NCBI GenBank assembly: GCA_019114945.1 | Contig: DXEN01000072.1 | Span: forward strand, 1-64,000 | DNA from: Candidatus Parabacteroides intestinigallinarum | GTDB lineage: Bacteria; Bacteroidota; Bacteroidia; Bacteroidales; Tannerellaceae | Direction of reading: 5' to 3' | DNA: 64,000 bases | Shown: piece after piece, positions 41,231 to 49,704 of the stretch | How the letters are laid out: each line of letters begins with the position of its first letter | Numbering within the stretch: the first letter of the stretch is position 1 | Notes under the pieces: generated by a model | Told to the model about the DNA's origin: nothing | The model's input: the letters and a program-made list of their open reading frames with translations, nothing else | The model's database searches: none | Translations under genes and position numbers: made by a program

Positions 41231-42298
41231 TTACAATCCGATTGTCTCATACTGGATGCGTCTCGCCCACGAGAGGGCGCTTATCTCCACGTTCACGTAC
41301 TCCCACGTGTCGCCCCGCAGGAAGAAGACCAACTGGAACTCGTGCCCGCGGTCGAGGAACTCCTGTGGCGAGTAGCGGTAGATGTCCGCCGCCGTGCGCA
41401 GGCGGCTCAGGATGTCGGGCAGGTCGACACGCGCCACCTCCACGCCGGTACGCCGGTTGGTGATGGACAGGATGGCGTCGTCCTCCGCCCGGTCGTGATA
41501 GATGAGCCGCGACGTCATGAAGTCGGCGTGCGCCATGCGGCCCACCCCGGTCGCGCCCTCCACGGGCCGGTCGTCGGTGTTACGTGTGGCGTAAGGCGTA
41601 TAGACCAGCGTATCGGCGTCGGTGGACTCGTCGACCGAGTTGTCCCACAACAGGTGGGCGTTACGCGCGTAGATACGGAAATCGTAATCGTCCACGTCGA
41701 TCCGCGTCGGGTCGTCGATCTCGCGGAGCGTGACGCTAATCTCCTTCGTGTTCCGCGTGAGCGACACCGTGTCGCGCGTGATCCGGTCGAGCACCACTTC
41801 CACGGGCTCGGTACGCATGCCGTGCCAGAGCGTATCGAGCGGCATGCCGCCGTGGGTCACGTAGCCCGCCGCGTCGTACTCCAACGTGTGCGTCACGGCG
41901 GAAAGGCTGTCGCCCGCCGCGGGCTCGGTACGGATAAACGCGGCGCCATCATCCAAGGAAAAAGTAGTTAACTCGTCGTAATCGCACTGGAAGGCGGAGA
42001 CCAGGTATTGGTAACGTCCGGGCGGCAGGTCGAAATGCATCTCGTAGCCATCGGCCGCCAGCGCGTCGCCGTGTTCCGACCGCGACGTCAGGAACGAGCC
42101 GTTCTCGTCGAACAAGTAGACCGTCACGTCGCCCACGTGGTCGGCGAACATATCCGCCCGCTGCAAATTATAATCGTACTCGAACGTCAGGCGCAACCCG
42201 CTGGGGCATGGCTCCAAATCGTCGTGTATATACTCGCACGAGGCCATCGCCGCGAGGGCCAGGAGCGCCCAACATGCTATGCTACTTTGTCTGTTCAT
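41231..42298 (-). CDS. Mfa2/FimB-family fimbrial anchor lipoprotein
   Basis: This 355-aa lipoprotein has the lipobox LAAMASC (residue 21) directly followed by EYIHDDLEPCPSGLRL, the hallmark start of FimB/Mfa2 proteins, which anchor and limit the length of Mfa fimbriae in the outer membrane. VGDVTVYLFDENGSFL and LPPGRYQYLVSAFQ are strands of the first transthyretin-like domain. It would normally follow the major-subunit gene directly, but two toxin-antitoxin cassettes and their repeats (about 2 kb) now lie in between. Confidence 0.88.
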   Translation of the reverse strand: MNRQSSIACWALLALAAMASCEYIHDDLEPCPSGLRLTFEYDYNLQRADMFADHVGDVTVYLFDENGSFLTSRSEHGDALAADGYEMHFDLPPGRYQYLVSAFQCDYDELTTFSLDDGAAFIRTEPAAGDSLSAVTHTLEYDAAGYVTHGGMPLDTLWHGMRTEPVEVVLDRITRDTVSLTRNTKEISVTLREIDDPTRIDVDDYDFRIYARNAHLLWDNSVDESTDADTLVYTPYATRNTDDRPVEGATGVGRMAHADFMTSRLIYHDRAEDDAILSITNRRTGVEVARVDLPDILSRLRTAADIYRYSPQEFLDRGHEFQLVFFLRGDTWEYVNVEISALSWARRIQYETIGL

Positions 42299-42450: not shown

Positions 42451-42765
42451 TCAATCGTTAATTATCAATTGGTTCGGGTCACGGCGAGTGTCCCAGAAGT
42501 CCACCCCATAGACAATCCTATTGGCTTCATCCACTCGATAAATCAATTTAAAATGAGGCTGTATGCATAAAGAACGATACTCGTATCGCCTATCCTTCAA
42601 CAAGAGTTCCAGCGGAGCCATATAAGGAAATAGCTCTAACAAACTCGCGGTCTGTATAACATTCTTATAAAAACGTCTTGCCACATTCGTGCCAAACTCC
42701 CGCTCCGCATAAAGCATATTCTCTTTCAAGGCGCGCTTCACTTTCTCGGTTAGAAAAAGCTTCAT
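42451..42765 (-). CDS. RelE/ParE-family toxin, cassette 1
   Basis: This 104-aa toxin (start MKLFLTEKVKRALKEN) has the family fold signature RRFYKNVIQTASLLELFPY, YEYRSLCIQPHFKLIYRVDE and the final VDFWDTRRDPNQL. RelE/ParE toxins cleave mRNA on ribosomes or poison gyrase. The ORF track starts at 42816, but the ATG at 42765 overlaps the antitoxin stop as ATGA, so the pair is coupled. The last codons (IIND) come from the AATTG repeat beyond the gene. The 40 bp covering the end of the gene are identical to those of cassette 2. Confidence 0.85.
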   Translation of the reverse strand: MKLFLTEKVKRALKENMLYAEREFGTNVARRFYKNVIQTASLLELFPYMAPLELLLKDRRYEYRSLCIQPHFKLIYRVDEANRIVYGVDFWDTRRDPNQLIIND

Positions 42766-43052
42766 GATACCAGCCATGGGAAATCTCGTTCTAATTCTTG
42801 CTTCAAGTCTTCCCAAGCTATCACCTTACCGGCGGCGATATCAGCCTCAGCTACTAAAATACGAGCCTCTAATTCCTCTTGTGTATAAGGAATGGGATAA
42901 GCCGTGAAATCCTTCGCGTGACTTTCATCAGCGATCCTCCTCCATCGCTTATACTCGTCAGAATAAATAGGAAGTGCCGCCTTCGGCGTACGCTCGTAGG
43001 CTACCTCGGGTTCGCTGAGGCGGTTGTCGGTCTTGTTGTCGTCTGCTTCCAT
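42762..43052 (-). CDS. putative antitoxin, cassette 1
   Basis: This is a 96-aa acidic protein. Its first 25 residues (including NRLSEPEVAYERTPKA) are almost identical to those of the second antitoxin, while the remainder (YPIPYTQEELEARILVAEAD, AWEDLKQELERDFPWLVS) is different. The C-terminal helix with WEDLKQELE is what would wrap the toxin. No classical DNA-binding domain is recognised. Antitoxin function is inferred from order, overlap and the RelE/ParE partner. Confidence 0.78.
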   Translation of the reverse strand: MEADDNKTDNRLSEPEVAYERTPKAALPIYSDEYKRWRRIADESHAKDFTAYPIPYTQEELEARILVAEADIAAGKVIAWEDLKQELERDFPWLVS

Positions 43053-43074
43053 CGCGATTGTTATTTGGTATGCG

Positions 43075-43082
43075 CGAAGATA
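43075..43082 (-). promoter_or_regulatory. minus-7 promoter element, cassette 1
   Basis: On the minus strand TATCTTCG matches TAnnTTTG at seven of eight positions, 22 bp before the antitoxin ATG. The upstream part of the promoter is formed by the TTGACAATT repeat. Confidence 0.5.
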
Positions 43083-43106
43083 ACGTTTCTAATTGACAAT
43101 TGATAA

Positions 43107-43168
43107 TTGACAATGGACAATTAAATTGACAATGGACAATGGACGATTGACAATTAGCCTTGGCCTCT
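43107..43168. repeat. 62-bp direct repeat, copy 2
   Basis: This is identical to copies 1 and 3. Here it continues into a 190-bp duplicated block (42979-43168) that also covers the promoter and the first 25 antitoxin codons of cassette 1. Confidence 0.9.
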
Positions 43169-43204
43169 ACCGTTTCCCGCTAATAATTAGTGGATGTGTC
43201 TAAT

Positions 43205-43314
43205 CGCGGAAAAGCACACAGATGACACAGATCGAACGGATGAACGCAGATCGTTTTTATTGATTTATAATTAAATAAATCCGTGCAAATCCGCGCCCTC
43301 CGCGTCTGCGTGCC
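43205..43314. repeat. gene-less dispersed-repeat remnant between the two cassettes
   Basis: The segment holds GCACACAGATGACACAGATC at one end and an imperfect inverted counterpart (CCGCGTCTGCGTGCC) at the other, with an AT-rich centre. I recall this style of sequence as the flank of GxxExxY-protein genes in Bacteroidetes and other phyla, but no such gene is present here. The 312-bp gap 43053-43364 contains only this, the copy-2 repeat and an AATTGTCAATT stretch. Confidence 0.5.
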
Positions 43315-43364
43315 AATACTTGATTTTGACATACCTTCTTTTCCCCGCGAATAATTGTCAATTG

Positions 43365-43691
43365 TTAATCGTCAATTGTCAATTTAGTCGTCAATTGGTT
43401 CGGGTCACGGCGAGTGTCCCAGAAGTCCACCACGTGAAGCTCCACCCGCGGTTCGTCAACGAAATAGATTAACTTGAAATGAGGGCGGACCCGTAATGAC
43501 CGGTAACGGTACTTCTTTCCACTAAGAAAGCTCTCTTCCGAGCCCAAATATGGAAAATCAATAAGATACCTCACATCCGAAAGAACCCCCTCATAGAAAC
43601 GCGAAGCCACTCGCTCTCCAAATCGCATTTTACACCATTGATAGTTTAAGCGTATCCGCTTTCGCGCCTCCGCATGTATCACTAACCGCAT
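43365..43691 (-). CDS. RelE/ParE-family toxin, cassette 2
   Basis: This 108-aa toxin (start MRLVIHAEARKRIRLN) is homologous to the cassette 1 toxin but diverged in the core (YQWCKMRFGERVASRFYEGV against RFYKNVIQTA). It shares YRYRSLRVRPHFKLIYFVDE and the identical VDFWDTRRDPNQL. The last residues TTKLTIDD are read from the AATTG repeat. The listed ORF begins at 43751; the ATG at 43691 overlaps the antitoxin end by 10 nt and gives the normal family length. Confidence 0.85.
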   Translation of the reverse strand: MRLVIHAEARKRIRLNYQWCKMRFGERVASRFYEGVLSDVRYLIDFPYLGSEESFLSGKKYRYRSLRVRPHFKLIYFVDEPRVELHVVDFWDTRRDPNQLTTKLTIDD

Positions 43692-44029
43692 GGATAACGA
43701 TGTTTTAACTCCGGAAACTCCTTTTCCATCTCCTCTTGAAACTTCTCCCAAGTAATCCCGGAATCGCGCCCGGCATCAATCTCCCCTTGAATCCATTCAA
43801 TCCGTTGCCGCGCCTCACGCTTTGTCAAAGGCCTTGGATGCTCTAAGGTATCCAAGCGCTCCCGCAAATCCGGCATCTCCGCATAAAAACACGGATGCTC
43901 TCTACGAATAATATCCATCATCTCGTTCACCGTCTTACGGGAGTGAGACACGCTTGCCTTCGGCGTACGCTCGTAGGCTACCTCGGGCTCGCTGAGGCGG
44001 TTGTCGGTCTTGTTGTCGTCTGATTCCAT
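43682..44029 (-). CDS. putative antitoxin, cassette 2
   Basis: This 115-aa protein has the same N-terminal 25 residues as antitoxin 1 (one change visible) and then a different body (KTVNEMMDIIRREHPCFYAE, REARQRIEWIQGEIDAG, GITWEKFQEEMEKEFPEL). Both antitoxins end in a similar WExxxxExEkeFP helix. It precedes its toxin with a 10-nt overlap. Constant N-terminus and variable body suggest that the cores have been exchanged by recombination. Confidence 0.78.
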   Translation of the reverse strand: MESDDNKTDNRLSEPEVAYERTPKASVSHSRKTVNEMMDIIRREHPCFYAEMPDLRERLDTLEHPRPLTKREARQRIEWIQGEIDAGRDSGITWEKFQEEMEKEFPELKHRYPCG

Positions 44030-44313: not shown

Positions 44314-46128
44314 TTACAGCTCTACGTCTTGCGTACGTTTAGCCCAAGCGAGGATACGAATCTCTGCCTTTACGTAACCCGTTTCCTCGTCATCCGGCGT
44401 ATCCGGCGTATCCGGGATTTCCGGCTCGCCCGGGCTGGTTATCTTCGTAATATGCAACTCGTACCAGTTGTTGCGAACCACGCCGTAACGTCCCAGATGT
44501 TTCTCTTCCGTATAATTATACGGATCGCCATCGGTAGCCTCAGTCCAAGGAGTATAGTCATCCCCGAAGTGCTCGATGCGGCTTACGTGATAGAACACTT
44601 GCGCGTCCTTATAATACTTCACGGAACCAAACTCGCTTAAGATGGTTTGCAGATTGGCAGCGTCATCCTGAGCATCCATACCTAACAGCGTAGCCAAGCC
44701 TTCCACCGTATCGTAAGTACCGCCGTTCACTCCCGCCGCCGGTTTCCAGCCATCAGCCAAGAAAGAAGGAGACCCGCCAATCTTATCATTTACCTGCTTA
44801 ATAAAATTAGCTATTGTATAAGTATGGCCAGGCTCATCCTTACCCATAACGAAGAAGCTCGGATCCTCCGCGTCCACGTTCGAGTTCGTCGACGCTCCCT
44901 CAGCACCAGTTTCTTGCGTGAAAAAATACTGTCCAGTCAACACGATGCGAGTGGTCTGCGCCTCCTTCATATTGGCGGCATCGAAGGTGTTCTCGAAGCA
45001 ATAAAGGGGGTTGTCGCTGCCTATCTTCTTCTCCCACTCGATATCAGAGGCGGAAGTCACATCGGCGATGTAATTGAACTCTTGACTGTAGCGGGTATCT
45101 GTCGGCGTGTTGGGATTCGCCGTTCCATAGTTCGACCCATCATAGTTGCCATCCACAGACCAATAGATACGATACGGCTCCGTGTCTGCCACGAAGCGGC
45201 TATTCCCACCTCCTGAATTGATATTTGGATTATAATGACCGAACCACGTGCTATACGGCGTTACATCGTGCAGCAGCTTGGTAGACTTGTTCGTTACGTC
45301 CAGCGTCCAGCCTTCCAGCACGGCGTATCCCGAATAACCCTGCGGCAGGCCGGTTATATCCTTCCGAAGCTCACCGTTCTCCTCAGCATCAAATCCCGTC
45401 AGCGTCACTTTCGCCATGACGCGCTCCAAGTGAATCACCGTAGCGGAGTTCTGATTGGCTTCCGCCTCGGTCTCGTAAATCGTTATCGGCTGCAAAATCT
45501 CTACCTTCGCGCTATTGTCCGAGCTGATAACCGCCTTGGTAGCCAACGGGGCGTTGAGCATCGTGAAGCCATCGTTACCCGTATAATCAGCGATATCTTG
45601 ATCCTCCAGCTTCGTACGCAAGTCCGCCAACTTCAGGGCAGTAGTCCCTTCAGCATCATACGTCGTACCAGCGATTGTCAACGAATGCGTATTGTTGTTC
45701 ATGGATATGACATTGCTATGCCCGTTCAATATCACCAAGGCGTAAACCGGGTTCGTATTGTTCTTTAACAGCGGGGCTTGCGCCGTCAGGGTCTGCGTCG
45801 CCGTAATAGCGTCAGTATGAGTCTCATCTTGATTCCAAGTTCCCGGCAGGTTATAAGCGCCCACGAAAACAGCGTTCTCCTCGCTCACGCCACTGAAGTA
45901 GGCTATGATTCCGCTCTTTACCGTCCACTCGCTATCCAAGCCGTCATCGAAACTATCGTTCGCGGCGCGCGTACCCGTGGTAGAAGGCAAAGAAATCGTC
46001 ACCTTCGCGTACCCTGTCGCGCCTTCCACCACGTTAGGGCCATCCTGCCCGCCTTCCAGGTCGTCGCTACAGCCGGCGAGGAGCATACCTGCCGCCAGCA
46101 TACTGAATACATAAAATCTCTTTTTCAT
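44314..46128 (-). CDS. Mfa1-family major fimbrial subunit
   Basis: This 604-aa lipoprotein has the lipobox LLAGC at residue 20 (followed by SDDLEGG). TGTRAAND near residue 55 looks like the Arg maturation site that frees the N-terminal strand for donor-strand exchange. KVTISLPS, SGIIAYFSG and VIHLERVMAKVTLTGF fit the first Mfa-like domain. The C-terminus (NNWYELHITKITSPGEPEIP, VKAEIRILAWAKRTQDVEL) is the standard final strand. It is the first pilin gene after the DUF3868 gene and is therefore the likely shaft subunit. Confidence 0.88.
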   Translation of the reverse strand: MKKRFYVFSMLAAGMLLAGCSDDLEGGQDGPNVVEGATGYAKVTISLPSTTGTRAANDSFDDGLDSEWTVKSGIIAYFSGVSEENAVFVGAYNLPGTWNQDETHTDAITATQTLTAQAPLLKNNTNPVYALVILNGHSNVISMNNNTHSLTIAGTTYDAEGTTALKLADLRTKLEDQDIADYTGNDGFTMLNAPLATKAVISSDNSAKVEILQPITIYETEAEANQNSATVIHLERVMAKVTLTGFDAEENGELRKDITGLPQGYSGYAVLEGWTLDVTNKSTKLLHDVTPYSTWFGHYNPNINSGGGNSRFVADTEPYRIYWSVDGNYDGSNYGTANPNTPTDTRYSQEFNYIADVTSASDIEWEKKIGSDNPLYCFENTFDAANMKEAQTTRIVLTGQYFFTQETGAEGASTNSNVDAEDPSFFVMGKDEPGHTYTIANFIKQVNDKIGGSPSFLADGWKPAAGVNGGTYDTVEGLATLLGMDAQDDAANLQTILSEFGSVKYYKDAQVFYHVSRIEHFGDDYTPWTEATDGDPYNYTEEKHLGRYGVVRNNWYELHITKITSPGEPEIPDTPDTPDDEETGYVKAEIRILAWAKRTQDVEL

Positions 46129-46204
46129 TGTTCACTCGTTTTTTATATATTAATTACTCATATTACCCTATATCGCTTTCCATTCTCTATGGTAATCGCT
46201 GCCG

Positions 46205-46411
46205 CCTTCCGAGGTTAGCGGCATACCCTTTCCGAGGTTAGCGGCTATCCCCTTCCGAGGTTAGCGGCTATCCTCCTCCGAGGTTAGCGGCTATCCTCGT
46301 ACCAGGTTAGCGGCTATCCTCGTACGAGGTCAGCGGCAGACCTTGGAGGAGGTTAGCGGCAGACCTTGGAAGAGGTTAGCGGCAAGCCTTGGAGGAGGAT
46401 AGCGGCAAGCC
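46205..46411. repeat. minisatellite, nine 23-bp units, in the fimbrial operon
   Basis: The core GAGGTTAGCGGC recurs at 46211, 46234, 46257, 46280, 46303, 46326, 46349, 46372 and 46395, always 23 bp apart. Variants change in order along the array: CTATCC in early units, then CAGACC, then CAAGCC, as expected from stepwise duplication. It fills most of the gap between the DUF3868 stop and the Mfa1-like start. Confidence 0.95.
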
Positions 46412-46416
46412 TCGGC

Positions 46417-47856
46417 TCACCGTCGCTCCTTGGCGCGCTTGCGGGCGATTTGCTCCAAGTTGTCGCTCGCCGCGGCGCCCACGCGCGGGTCGTCCGTCAG
46501 CGGCCGCAGGAGCGCCTCGGCGCGGTCGAGGTCGCCCTCACGCATCACTAACGCCGCCTCGGCGAGGCTCCGCTCCGGGCAATCGGCGGCTTTCGCCAAG
46601 TAGGCGCGCGCCTTGTCGAGCTGGCCCGCCCCGATGGCGGTGACCGCCGCGTTGAGGTTCGACACGGGGTCGTCCGGATACATGCGCACGGCTATCTCGA
46701 ACACCTCGTTGAAGCGCTCGCTACCCGGCTCCATGGTGTTCGCCACGCGGAAGAGCTCGTTGAGGCTCAGCTGCGCCGGGTCGGTGAACGCCAGCTCGGC
46801 GGCCTCCTCGACGGTAAAGTTGCGTATCGTGTAATCCACCTCGTAGTCGGAATGCCGCAAGGCGGGATAAATCTCGTTCAGCAGGCGGCGGTACGAAGCG
46901 CCCCCGTTGAGGCTCTTCAGCCGCCACTCGCGGGCGTCCCAGTCCGCCGGCTCCGGGGCGCGGATGATAGCGAGCAGCTCGTCCTTGTCGGCGAGGTCGC
47001 TCGCCTCCACGGCACGCTCCAGTCCCGCCCAATCCTCGGGCTCGGAGGTCACGTCCCAGCGGGCGCCCTCCAAGGGGTATAGCTTCCGCACGTACTCCAT
47101 CAGCGCGCGGGCCCTGCCCTCGGCGAGGCGGGCGTTGGCGGCGTAAGCGCCCTCGGGCGACGCGTAGCCGCGGATAGTCACCGCCGTGATGGTGGCGAAG
47201 CGGTTGGCGCGTACCTCGTCGATGGTGGCGCGTATCTTCGCCAGCTCGGCGGGGTTGTCGCGGTAGTCGGGATGTATCTCCACGCGGTTGACGGGGAAAT
47301 CGAGGAACGCGCTGCCCGCCAATGAGCGCGCCTTCACCGCCTCCGCCTCGGGGGTGACGTAAAGCGCGCGGGGCTCGAGGGTGACGGGCCGCAAGTCGAG
47401 CGCGAAGAGGGGCGAGCGCTCGCTGCTGAGCGACTCCCAGCCACAGCCGCAGTCGTCCATCACGAGCGACACCCGGGCGCTCTCCATCCAATCGGCGTAG
47501 GGCACGCGCGCGGTGTAGTCTATCCGGCGCGGCTCGCCCTTATGCACGCGGTACACGTATTCCGCGGGCGGGTCGGCCACGGGTCGCTCCAAGCGCTCGT
47601 ACAGGATGTGGCGCGTCTTGCCGTTGAGCACGATCGCGGGCAGCGCCCGCGCGCTATCGCCCGCCTCGACCATCGGGACGCACACCACGGAATGGTCTTT
47701 CGGAATATCCATGCCGCCGATATCGACGCGCATCGAGATAACCAGCTCGTCGCCCACGCGTTCCGCCAAGCGGTCGGTGACGACGAAAGTCGCCTCCCGC
47801 GCCGGCGCCATCCCCGCGAGGCTACCTATATATAAGATAAACAACCATTTTCTCAT
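46417..47856 (-). CDS. DUF3868 and OmpA-like fimbrial accessory protein
   Basis: This 479-aa exported protein has a signal peptide at residues 1-19. The N-terminal DUF3868 domain (VVTDRLAERVGDELVISMRV) is followed by an OmpA-like peptidoglycan-associated region (ITAVTIRGYASPEGAYAANA, LAEGRARALMEYVRKLYP). The C-terminal TPR-like helices include TIRNFTVEEAAELAFTDPAQ. DUF3868 proteins commonly pair with DUF3575 proteins upstream of Mfa-type pilins, where they probably tie the fimbrial outer-membrane components to the cell wall. The coding sequence looks more G+C-rich than the adjoining pilin genes. Confidence 0.86.
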   Translation of the reverse strand: MRKWLFILYIGSLAGMAPAREATFVVTDRLAERVGDELVISMRVDIGGMDIPKDHSVVCVPMVEAGDSARALPAIVLNGKTRHILYERLERPVADPPAEYVYRVHKGEPRRIDYTARVPYADWMESARVSLVMDDCGCGWESLSSERSPLFALDLRPVTLEPRALYVTPEAEAVKARSLAGSAFLDFPVNRVEIHPDYRDNPAELAKIRATIDEVRANRFATITAVTIRGYASPEGAYAANARLAEGRARALMEYVRKLYPLEGARWDVTSEPEDWAGLERAVEASDLADKDELLAIIRAPEPADWDAREWRLKSLNGGASYRRLLNEIYPALRHSDYEVDYTIRNFTVEEAAELAFTDPAQLSLNELFRVANTMEPGSERFNEVFEIAVRMYPDDPVSNLNAAVTAIGAGQLDKARAYLAKAADCPERSLAEAALVMREGDLDRAEALLRPLTDDPRVGAAASDNLEQIARKRAKERR

Positions 47857-47876: not shown

Positions 47877-48473
47877 TTAGAATAGATAAATCGCGCTGAC
47901 GGCCGCTTGCGTAGGCCCGAAGTAGTGCTTGCGCGTGTTCTCGATACGCGTGCCGCAATTCTCGCACGGATACTTGTCCGACTCCAAGTAGAGATAGCCC
48001 ACGCCGATAGTCGCCTCGATGTTCCAATGCTTGCCCACTACCCAGTTGTAGCCGTAGCTGACGCCCACGCCGGCGCCCCAGCCCTGGTGGCGCTCGTCGG
48101 CGGTTCCCAACCAGCTGATATCGGATACGTTATATATAAGGTAAGGGACGTGCACGCCCAGGAAATGACCGTAAAAAGTCTCGCAGAACCAATAACGCAG
48201 CTCCGGATGCACCCGGAAATGCTTGATAGACTTGCCGTAGCTCCCGTCGTCCTCCTTGCCGGTGAAGGGATTGAGACCCACCTCGGCCTCGAGCGACCAC
48301 CGCGGGGCGAGGCGGAATTCCACGCCTAAGTTGGGCGTCGCCGTCGCCCAATAGAGGGCGTTCGTCTTCAGCGCCACCGCCGGAGGCCTTCCATCCCCAC
48401 CCAAGGGCGACCTGGCGCTGGCCCACCCAATCAACGAGCTAATACACAATCCGATTATGAAAAGCTTTCTCAT
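47877..48473 (-). CDS. DUF3575 outer-membrane beta-barrel protein
   Basis: This 198-aa protein has a signal peptide (residues 1-20) and the DUF3575 opening AVALKTNALYWATATPNLGV, alternating strands (VEFRLAPRWSLEAEVGLNPF, HFRVHPELRYWF) and a terminal aromatic residue (SAIYLF) as in small outer-membrane barrels. Two CxxC-like cysteines (CENCG) lie near the end. It is the first gene of the fimbrial locus, 20 nt upstream of DUF3868, and is preceded by a leader of about 250 nt. Confidence 0.88.
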   Translation of the reverse strand: MRKLFIIGLCISSLIGWASARSPLGGDGRPPAVALKTNALYWATATPNLGVEFRLAPRWSLEAEVGLNPFTGKEDDGSYGKSIKHFRVHPELRYWFCETFYGHFLGVHVPYLIYNVSDISWLGTADERHQGWGAGVGVSYGYNWVVGKHWNIEATIGVGYLYLESDKYPCENCGTRIENTRKHYFGPTQAAVSAIYLF

Positions 48474-48536
48474 ACACCACTATCCTATTGTTTTCCATTT
48501 CCATAGATTTCTTTTGACGTGAGAACCGGGGGGATA

Positions 48537-48670
48537 TACCCTATATATCCATCCCATTCCACCTCGATTGTCGTCTGACGCGTCCGGATAAGATACCCTA
48601 TTCCATTTTCCATCTCTCCGGAGCCAACTACCCTATAAAGCTCTCTTCCGCGACCGAACCCATACCCTAT
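48537..48670 (-). promoter_or_regulatory. four ATAGGGTA octamers in the fimbrial leader
   Basis: On the minus strand ATAGGGTA occurs at 48663-48670, 48629-48636, 48594-48601 and 48537-48544, all in the same direction; three are followed by T. A fifth copy lies at 46164-46171, 36 bp before the Mfa1-like ATG. They may bind a regulator as DNA or as leader RNA. Confidence 0.5.
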
Positions 48671-48707: not shown

Positions 48708-48730
48708 GGCGTTTTCGTTCAGAAAACGCC
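48708..48730 (-). terminator. terminator of dapA overlapping the fimbrial start site
   Basis: On the minus strand GGCGTTTTC, a 5-nt loop and GAAAACGCC form a perfect 9-bp stem followed by TTATTTG. This would end dapA transcripts. A transcript started at the fimbrial promoter would begin inside the first arm and so escape the hairpin. Confidence 0.65.
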
Positions 48731-48731
48731 A

Positions 48732-48762
48732 CAAATATATAGAATTCCATTCGCTTAGCAAC
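48732..48762 (-). promoter_or_regulatory. promoter of the fimbrial operon
   Basis: On the minus strand GTTG (48759-48762), 19 bp, then TATATTTG (48732-48739) match the Bacteroidales TTTG-N19-21-TAnnTTTG promoter with one substitution. This is the best-spaced promoter in the window. A G9 tract begins 5 bp further upstream. Confidence 0.7.
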
Positions 48763-48767
48763 GTCCG

Positions 48768-48776
48768 CCCCCCCCC
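48768..48776. repeat. nine-base homopolymer tract (C on plus, G on minus)
   Basis: A run of nine C lies 34 bp after the dapA stop and just upstream of the minus-33 box of the fimbrial promoter. Such tracts are prone to slippage and could modulate promoter activity. Confidence 0.8.
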
Positions 48777-48810
48777 GTTAACATAAATTAATATGCGGGA
48801 GGAACGTTCC

Positions 48811-49704
48811 TCAGCACTTGATGCTCAGCTGCCGGAGCACCTCGCGTATCTTCTCGTAGGTAACGATACGCGTGGGCACCAATGGCAAGCGCAGCTTATT
48901 CTCGATGAAGCCCATCATGCTCAGCATACTTTTCACGCCCGCCGGGTTGCCATCGACGAAGAGCAGGCTGAACAACTCCGTAAAACTGTGGTGGATGGCG
49001 CGTGCGTTGTCGTAATCGCCCGCTAACGCCAGGCGGACCATACGGCTGAACTCGCGCGGGAAAGCGTTTCCGATAACCGATATCACGCCGATCGCCCCCA
49101 ACGTAACGAGCGGAAAAGTAATGCCATCGTCGCCGGAGATGACATTGAACCGCGCCGGTTTATGCTTGATAATATCGTCCATCTGGGTGATATTGCCGGA
49201 AGCCTCTTTCACGGCGATCACGTTGTCGAACTCACGGGCGATGCGCAGGGTCGTCTCCGCCGTCATGTTCACGCCCGTCCGCCCGGGCACGTTATACAGC
49301 ACGAGCGGCAGCCGCGTCGCCTCGGCGATCGCCTTGTAATGTTGGTAGATACCCTCCTGCGAAGGCTTATTATAATAAGGTACGACCGACAGGATCGCGT
49401 CGATTCCCTCGAAATCGTCGGTCCGCAGCTTCTCGACCACCGCGCGGGTGCAATTACCGCTCACGCCCAGGACGATGGGCACACGCCCCCGGACGCGGGT
49501 CACCACGAAGTGGGTAATGTTCTTCTTCTCCTCCTCGGTCAGCGTAGGCGTCTCCGCCGTCGTGCCCAAGACAACCAAATAATCCGTTCCATTCTGTACC
49601 TGGTAATCCACGAGGCGACCCAACGCCTCGTAGTCCACACTCTCATCTTCCTTGAACGGGGTGATCAGCGCCACGCCCATTCCTCTTAAATTTATATTTG
49701 CCAT
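48811..49704 (-). CDS. dapA: 4-hydroxy-tetrahydrodipicolinate synthase
   Basis: This 297-aa aldolase condenses pyruvate with aspartate semialdehyde at the start of lysine and diaminopimelate synthesis. GTTAETPTL binds pyruvate, YNVPGRTG carries Tyr137 of the proton relay, and AVKEASGN carries the Schiff-base Lys166. Length is normal. It has its own promoter and terminator and lies at the end of the ligA cluster. The sequence fits dapA better than nanA or other class I aldolases. Confidence 0.95.
   Translation of the reverse strand: MANINLRGMGVALITPFKEDESVDYEALGRLVDYQVQNGTDYLVVLGTTAETPTLTEEEKKNITHFVVTRVRGRVPIVLGVSGNCTRAVVEKLRTDDFEGIDAILSVVPYYNKPSQEGIYQHYKAIAEATRLPLVLYNVPGRTGVNMTAETTLRIAREFDNVIAVKEASGNITQMDDIIKHKPARFNVISGDDGITFPLVTLGAIGVISVIGNAFPREFSRMVRLALAGDYDNARAIHHSFTELFSLLFVDGNPAGVKSMLSMMGFIENKLRLPLVPTRIVTYEKIREVLRQLSIKC

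Follow-up and report, generated by a model that had tools for sequence, protein, structure and literature searches.

We predict that an Mfa/FimA-type fimbrial operon in Candidatus Parabacteroides intestinigallinarum has a promoter that is, on balance, probably switched through poly-G slippage. The promoter region sits between dapA and the DUF3575/DUF3868/fimbrillin/Mfa2 operon in the window (the whole stretch of 64,000 nucleotides that was analyzed), and its sequence points to a switch in which fimbrial expression rises or falls as a G is gained or lost at random. The best reading, by analogy, is a slippage-controlled promoter like the fim box and C-stretch promoters of Bordetella.

Organization of the fimbrial promoter and operon

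The relevant features, all on the minus strand, are given in the order in which they are transcribed.

48811 to 49704, minus strand: dapA (dihydrodipicolinate synthase), the upstream gene (PF00701, E 9e-81)
48787 to 48793, minus strand: TATTAAT, a second, imperfect half-site that lies 10 bp upstream of TGTTAAC
48777 to 48784, minus strand: conserved box ATGTTAAC, abutting the G tract on its 5′ side
48768 to 48776, minus strand: G9 homopolymer, the proposed slippage site
48759 to 48762, minus strand: GTTG, which partly matches the Bacteroides −33 box (TTTG) and stands in the same place as TTTG in sites L155 and L156
48732 to 48739, minus strand: TATATTTG, the −7 box (TAnnTTTG)
48708 to 48730, minus strand: terminator-like hairpin with a perfect 9-bp stem, which overlaps the predicted start (~48728)
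48537 to 48670, minus strand: 5′ leader, in which ATAGGGTA occurs four times (48537-48544, 48594-48601, 48629-48636 and 48663-48670)
47877 to 48473, minus strand: DUF3575 protein, the first gene of the operon (PF12099, E 2e-68)
46417 to 47856, minus strand: DUF3868 protein (PF12984, E 1e-8)
44314 to 46128, minus strand: fimbrillin, the major subunit (PF15495, E 3e-26)
41231 to 42298, minus strand: Mfa2-type fimbrial anchor (PF08842, E 5e-51)

The order of PF12099, PF12984, PF15495 and PF08842 identifies the operon as Mfa/FimA-type. Read directly from the sequence, CGGAC (48767-48763) separates G9 from GTTG and a 19-bp spacer (48758-48740) separates GTTG from TATATTTG. The element order given by a first-pass annotation (G9, 5 bp, GTTG, 19 bp, TATATTTG, hairpin) is thus correct at every position; its description of the promoter overlooked the TGTTAAC box. 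Bacteroides promoters have the consensus TAnnTTTG at −7 and a TTTG-like −33 box ~19-20 bp upstream. By this general consensus the window has a −33/−7 promoter, with TATATTTG, the 19-bp spacer and GTTG, which is a weak −33 box that matches TTTG only in part. G9, a homopolymer of at least 8 nucleotides in the promoter of a surface-structure gene, lies directly upstream of these boxes. The distance from tract to −7 box is 28 bp in the window, in paralog C27 and in L156, and 29 bp in L155. The order in L155 and L156 (box, tract, TAAAA, TTTG, 19-20 bp, TAnnTTTG) aligns with that in the window (box, G9, CGGAC, GTTG, 19 bp, TATATTTG).

In the proposed mechanism, the TGTTAAC box and its weaker copy 10 bp upstream are directly 5′ of G9, which lies between them and the −33 (GTTG) and −7 (TATATTTG) core. 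Replication slippage would add or remove G, and each G would shift the box and its putative binder by ~36 degrees and 3.4 Angstrom relative to RNA polymerase. The altered box position may raise or lower transcription, as with the Bordetella fim C-stretch, and the −33 to −7 spacing would be constant. Because the tract is upstream of the −33 box, length changes spare the core spacing and would act through box position. The start site, any variation in tract length at this locus, its transcriptional effect and a protein bound to the box are all inferences.

The hairpin is formed by GGCGTTTTC-TGAAC-GAAAACGCC, followed by TTATTTGT, in which the T-run 3′ of the stem is interrupted. Its minimum free energy is −13.3 kcal/mol (z −4.4), equalled by 0 of 200 shuffles, and it is the strongest of three sites found by a terminator scan of the region, a count close to the 2.0 obtained in shuffles. 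The first-pass annotation held that read-through from dapA would meet a full terminator and transcripts starting here would not. Folding makes this plausible: read-through RNA has the full stem at −13.3 kcal/mol, versus −4.7 or −0.8 kcal/mol for RNAs starting GUUUU or UUUUC, with the start placed from the −7 box. The hairpin would end dapA transcripts, and RNAs that start inside its first arm could not form the outer G-C pairs and would thereby avoid termination. Folding found no comparable hairpin at the two sister poly-G promoters, so we reject a conserved terminator-over-start design; the overlap is probably local, and the hairpin is best taken as a dapA terminator set close against the promoter.

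The window has five copies of ATAGGGTA (0.94 expected), all inside leaders of the fimbrial operon; the fifth copy (46164-46171, minus strand) is ~36 nt before the fimbrillin start. The leader of paralog C27 has four copies of ATAGGG, a motif present once or not at all in most invertible-type sisters. Between the DUF3868 and fimbrillin genes is a tandem array of a 23-bp unit (46205-46414, minus strand, 8.6 copies), predicted to form a single, very long hairpin (length 257 nt, energy −128.8 kcal/mol, z −7.4) that possibly sets the subunit ratio. Fimbrillin and the Mfa2 anchor are separated by two small gene pairs that resemble each other (42451-44029, minus strand); one of the pairs includes a ParE-like toxin (PF05016).

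The box and tract in Bacteroidales and phages

Long G runs are rare in this genome. Relative to random sequence with the G+C of the window, there are 3 G/C runs of at least 9 in 2.98 Mb (~28 expected) and 6 distinct runs of at least 8 (~105 expected). Two of the three tracts of at least G9 precede DUF3575 fimbrial genes (the window and C27), and three of the six of at least G8 are at fimbrial or Mfa2-like genes. The third fimbrial-like case, the C18 tract, is at the 5′ end of a lipoprotein gene whose match to Mfa2 is marginal (21.5 bits, cut-off 21.2).

Another Parabacteroides species (G014) has an orthologous operon, with DUF3575 77-79% identical and ATGTTAAC-G9 ~230 bp upstream of the start codon. 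Its leader and that of the window have a single long run in common, the 17-bp ATGTTAACGGGGGGGGG, and are otherwise unalignable; the longest run in shuffled leader pairs never exceeded 12 bp. The −7 box of the ortholog is 22 bp past the tract, versus 28 bp in the window. In paralog C27 the element reads AATGTTAAATGAGAG9. In the window the upstream half-site (TATTAAT) is a poor match. The tract is G9 in the assemblies of all three fimbrial sites, with no length variation among them. The genome-wide rarity, the recurrence of the half-sites and the run shared with G014 rule out an ordinary chance run.

We searched 84,980 species genomes for TGTTAACG7N{0,6}TAAA and found 39 stretches, 35 of them labelled Bacteroidota; the variable gap is G in nearly all of those 35. 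Among 37 independent sites (TTAAC/T-G≥8), 25 have a second TGTTAAC (at least 5/7 match) exactly 10 bp upstream, compared with 0.7 in shuffles (maximum 5), and no other upstream offset occurs more than twice. This spacing was absent from the search pattern. TAAA follows the tract at 28 of the 37, for most of which it was built into the pattern. Exact TGTTAACG8 has 3 matches in 393 genomes of the order (control 2). Since it is rare and near control level, we base the claim on the longer pattern together with the 10-bp phasing. A survey of 93 tracts of at least G9 in the genus (five added knowingly) found most without the box, so only a subset carries it, most often among the longest tracts.

The sites are before or at the start of genes for SusC-like receptors and lipoproteins, and also in a NeuD-like/ATP-grasp capsule gene, HsdS-like genes and a phage reverse transcriptase (phrog_1423, E 4e-42). 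These are surface or phage-defence types; the SusC, HsdS, NeuD and ATP-grasp identities were read from translations rather than profile matches. The capsule gene with the same box has G10 in P. faecis and G13 in P. goldsteinii, both open. Box and tract are found in promoters, at start codons and within genes, in either strand orientation, and ATGTTAAC provides the ATG in L141 and L158. Reading frames differ (MLTGGGK in L138, MLINVNGGGK in L139 and, from the opposite strand, PPPLTF in L061), which indicates that the box is conserved as DNA, not protein.

In L061 (G014:C87, another species), a DUF4988 lipoprotein gene comes after dapA and carries the same box with C8 on its coding strand, out of frame with the upstream ATG. 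Two promoter-like stretches in an Oscillospiraceae MAG (L146 and L159) read TTGACT-TGTTAAC-G12/13-TAAAAT, with poly-G inside a sigma-70 spacer.

The presence of the box inside coding sequence, a setting that does not suit a role in promoter binding, counts against a promoter switch, and the box may therefore also, or instead, affect tract mutability. Box and tract could form a hypermutable cassette in which tandem TGTTAAC raises slippage, or marks the tract for a host factor, wherever it is placed (promoter, start codon or mid-gene) and which phages also use; fimbrial expression here would still be altered. The variety of placements, orientations and frames speaks for this. So does the distribution of the tandem repeat without poly-G, which is not enriched: 39 genus genomes gave 2 matches, both adjoining poly-G; a Bacteroidia class sample gave 8 genomes (~10 for the reversed control), with poly-G adjoining 0 of 8 sites; and in viruses G≥4 follows 0 of 81 sites. 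These control-level frequencies also led us to reject a free-standing tandem-TGTTAAC regulon. However, many poly-G tracts in the genus have no box, distant phage reverse transcriptase genes retain poly-G with TGTGAAAC or TGTGAATC in place of the box, and no factor is known. We consider the cassette possible but rather unlikely, and favour the operator reading for the window promoter while keeping both. With similar reserve, we tentatively suggest that Bacteroidales and their phages might share a dedicated switch: two 10-bp-phased TGTTAAC, G8-18 and TAAA, with a trans-acting factor that would mark the tract or raise slippage, placed regardless of strand and frame at promoters and within genes for surface structures, for restriction systems and for reverse transcriptases of phages.

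Comparable tracts vary in length in nature, as shown by phage reverse transcriptase genes, which are separate from the window locus: genes that are 96-98% identical have G9 (open), G8 or G10 (both out of frame). In this family (L287-L302) the tract is ~420 codons in, 10 of 15 tract-bearing copies are out of frame at the first tract, and L299 has two tracts (G16 and G14) around a 37-bp insert. As a test of the reverse transcriptase as the element's source, we looked for a second TGTTAAC-poly-G copy on these phage contigs and found none.

The tract could also be a normal, stable promoter component, or present by accident, without phase variation. The reading of G9 at all three fimbrial sites, with no length variation seen at the window locus, would agree with this, but runs of at least G9 are about ten times rarer than chance and yet are kept at fimbrial promoters, in common with the G014 ortholog, and comparable tracts vary in the phage genes. 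A stable tract appears improbable. The earlier proposal of the homopolymer as a phase-variation candidate is partly supported overall; the observations include no length variation at the window locus, and the fimbrial tracts are all G9.

Candidate invertible promoters at sister operons

For Bacteroidales, most descriptions of phase variation concern DNA inversion. In a survey of 35 related DUF3575 operons (at least 55% identity), 16 have upstream inverted repeats of 18-56 bp, 109-465 bp apart, several of them with a tyrosine recombinase motif; a narrower test found such repeats in 0 of 45 shuffled upstream regions. One is paralog C10 of the same genome (L272), an invertible-promoter candidate by its sequence, with 31-bp repeats (28 matches) 403 bp apart and a recombinase motif upstream. 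A G/C run of at least 7 is absent within 500 bp in all 16, inverted repeats of the sister type are absent from the poly-G promoters, and no sister operon has both devices.

The window operon has no inverted repeat of the sister level and no recombinase within 1.5 kb. A promoter on an invertible segment with the G tract in one arm (GTTAACGGGGGGG and CCCCCCGGTT, the latter at 48524-48533) is extremely improbable and was rejected: a 10-bp, 90% inverted pair is present, 236 nt apart, and repeats of the invertible-promoter type are usual at sister operons, but these arms are short, G-rich and below the 18-56 bp of the sisters, the recombinase is absent, and GTTAACGGGGG occurs once only in the genome.

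Known switches and significance

The proposed slippage-controlled promoter resembles several known systems. In Bordetella pertussis fim2, fim3 and fimX, a fim box adjoins a C-stretch whose length is reported to alter transcription (PMC1891110). Both are fimbrial promoters with a homopolymer next to a conserved upstream box, although phylum, sigma factor and fimbria differ, and the box in the window is a 10-bp-phased TGTTAAC repeat that is also found in coding genes and phages. In Treponema pallidum, promoter poly-G of 7-11 is reported to control transcription of the surface-protein tpr genes, with 8 or fewer permissive for tprE, tprG and tprJ (PMC7864442). The tprL tract ends ~4 nt before the start site, whereas that of the window is upstream of the −33 box and has a conserved flanking box. 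Repeat length at Neisseria meningitidis nadA changes the spacing of NadR sites to the core promoter (PMC2791445), a change like that proposed here between upstream regulator sites and core promoter, but the repeat is different and the repressor known, whereas the binder of the window box is putative. Invertible promoters are the usual switch class of the order (PMC8748976) and have repeats like those upstream of the 16 related DUF3575 operons; they work by site-specific recombination of inverted repeats, whereas the window operon has neither repeats of this type nor a recombinase. A literature search, chiefly of freely accessible papers, found no account of a poly-G switch in this order.

Should the poly-G promoter function in the proposed way, a single fimbrial operon family would use two unrelated kinds of switch, in some cases within the same genome. 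It would then become testable, as a general question, whether selection acts on flanking sequence to tune how fast a contingency tract mutates, and Bacteroidales would have a slippage phasome that can be searched for by its recognisable DNA box.
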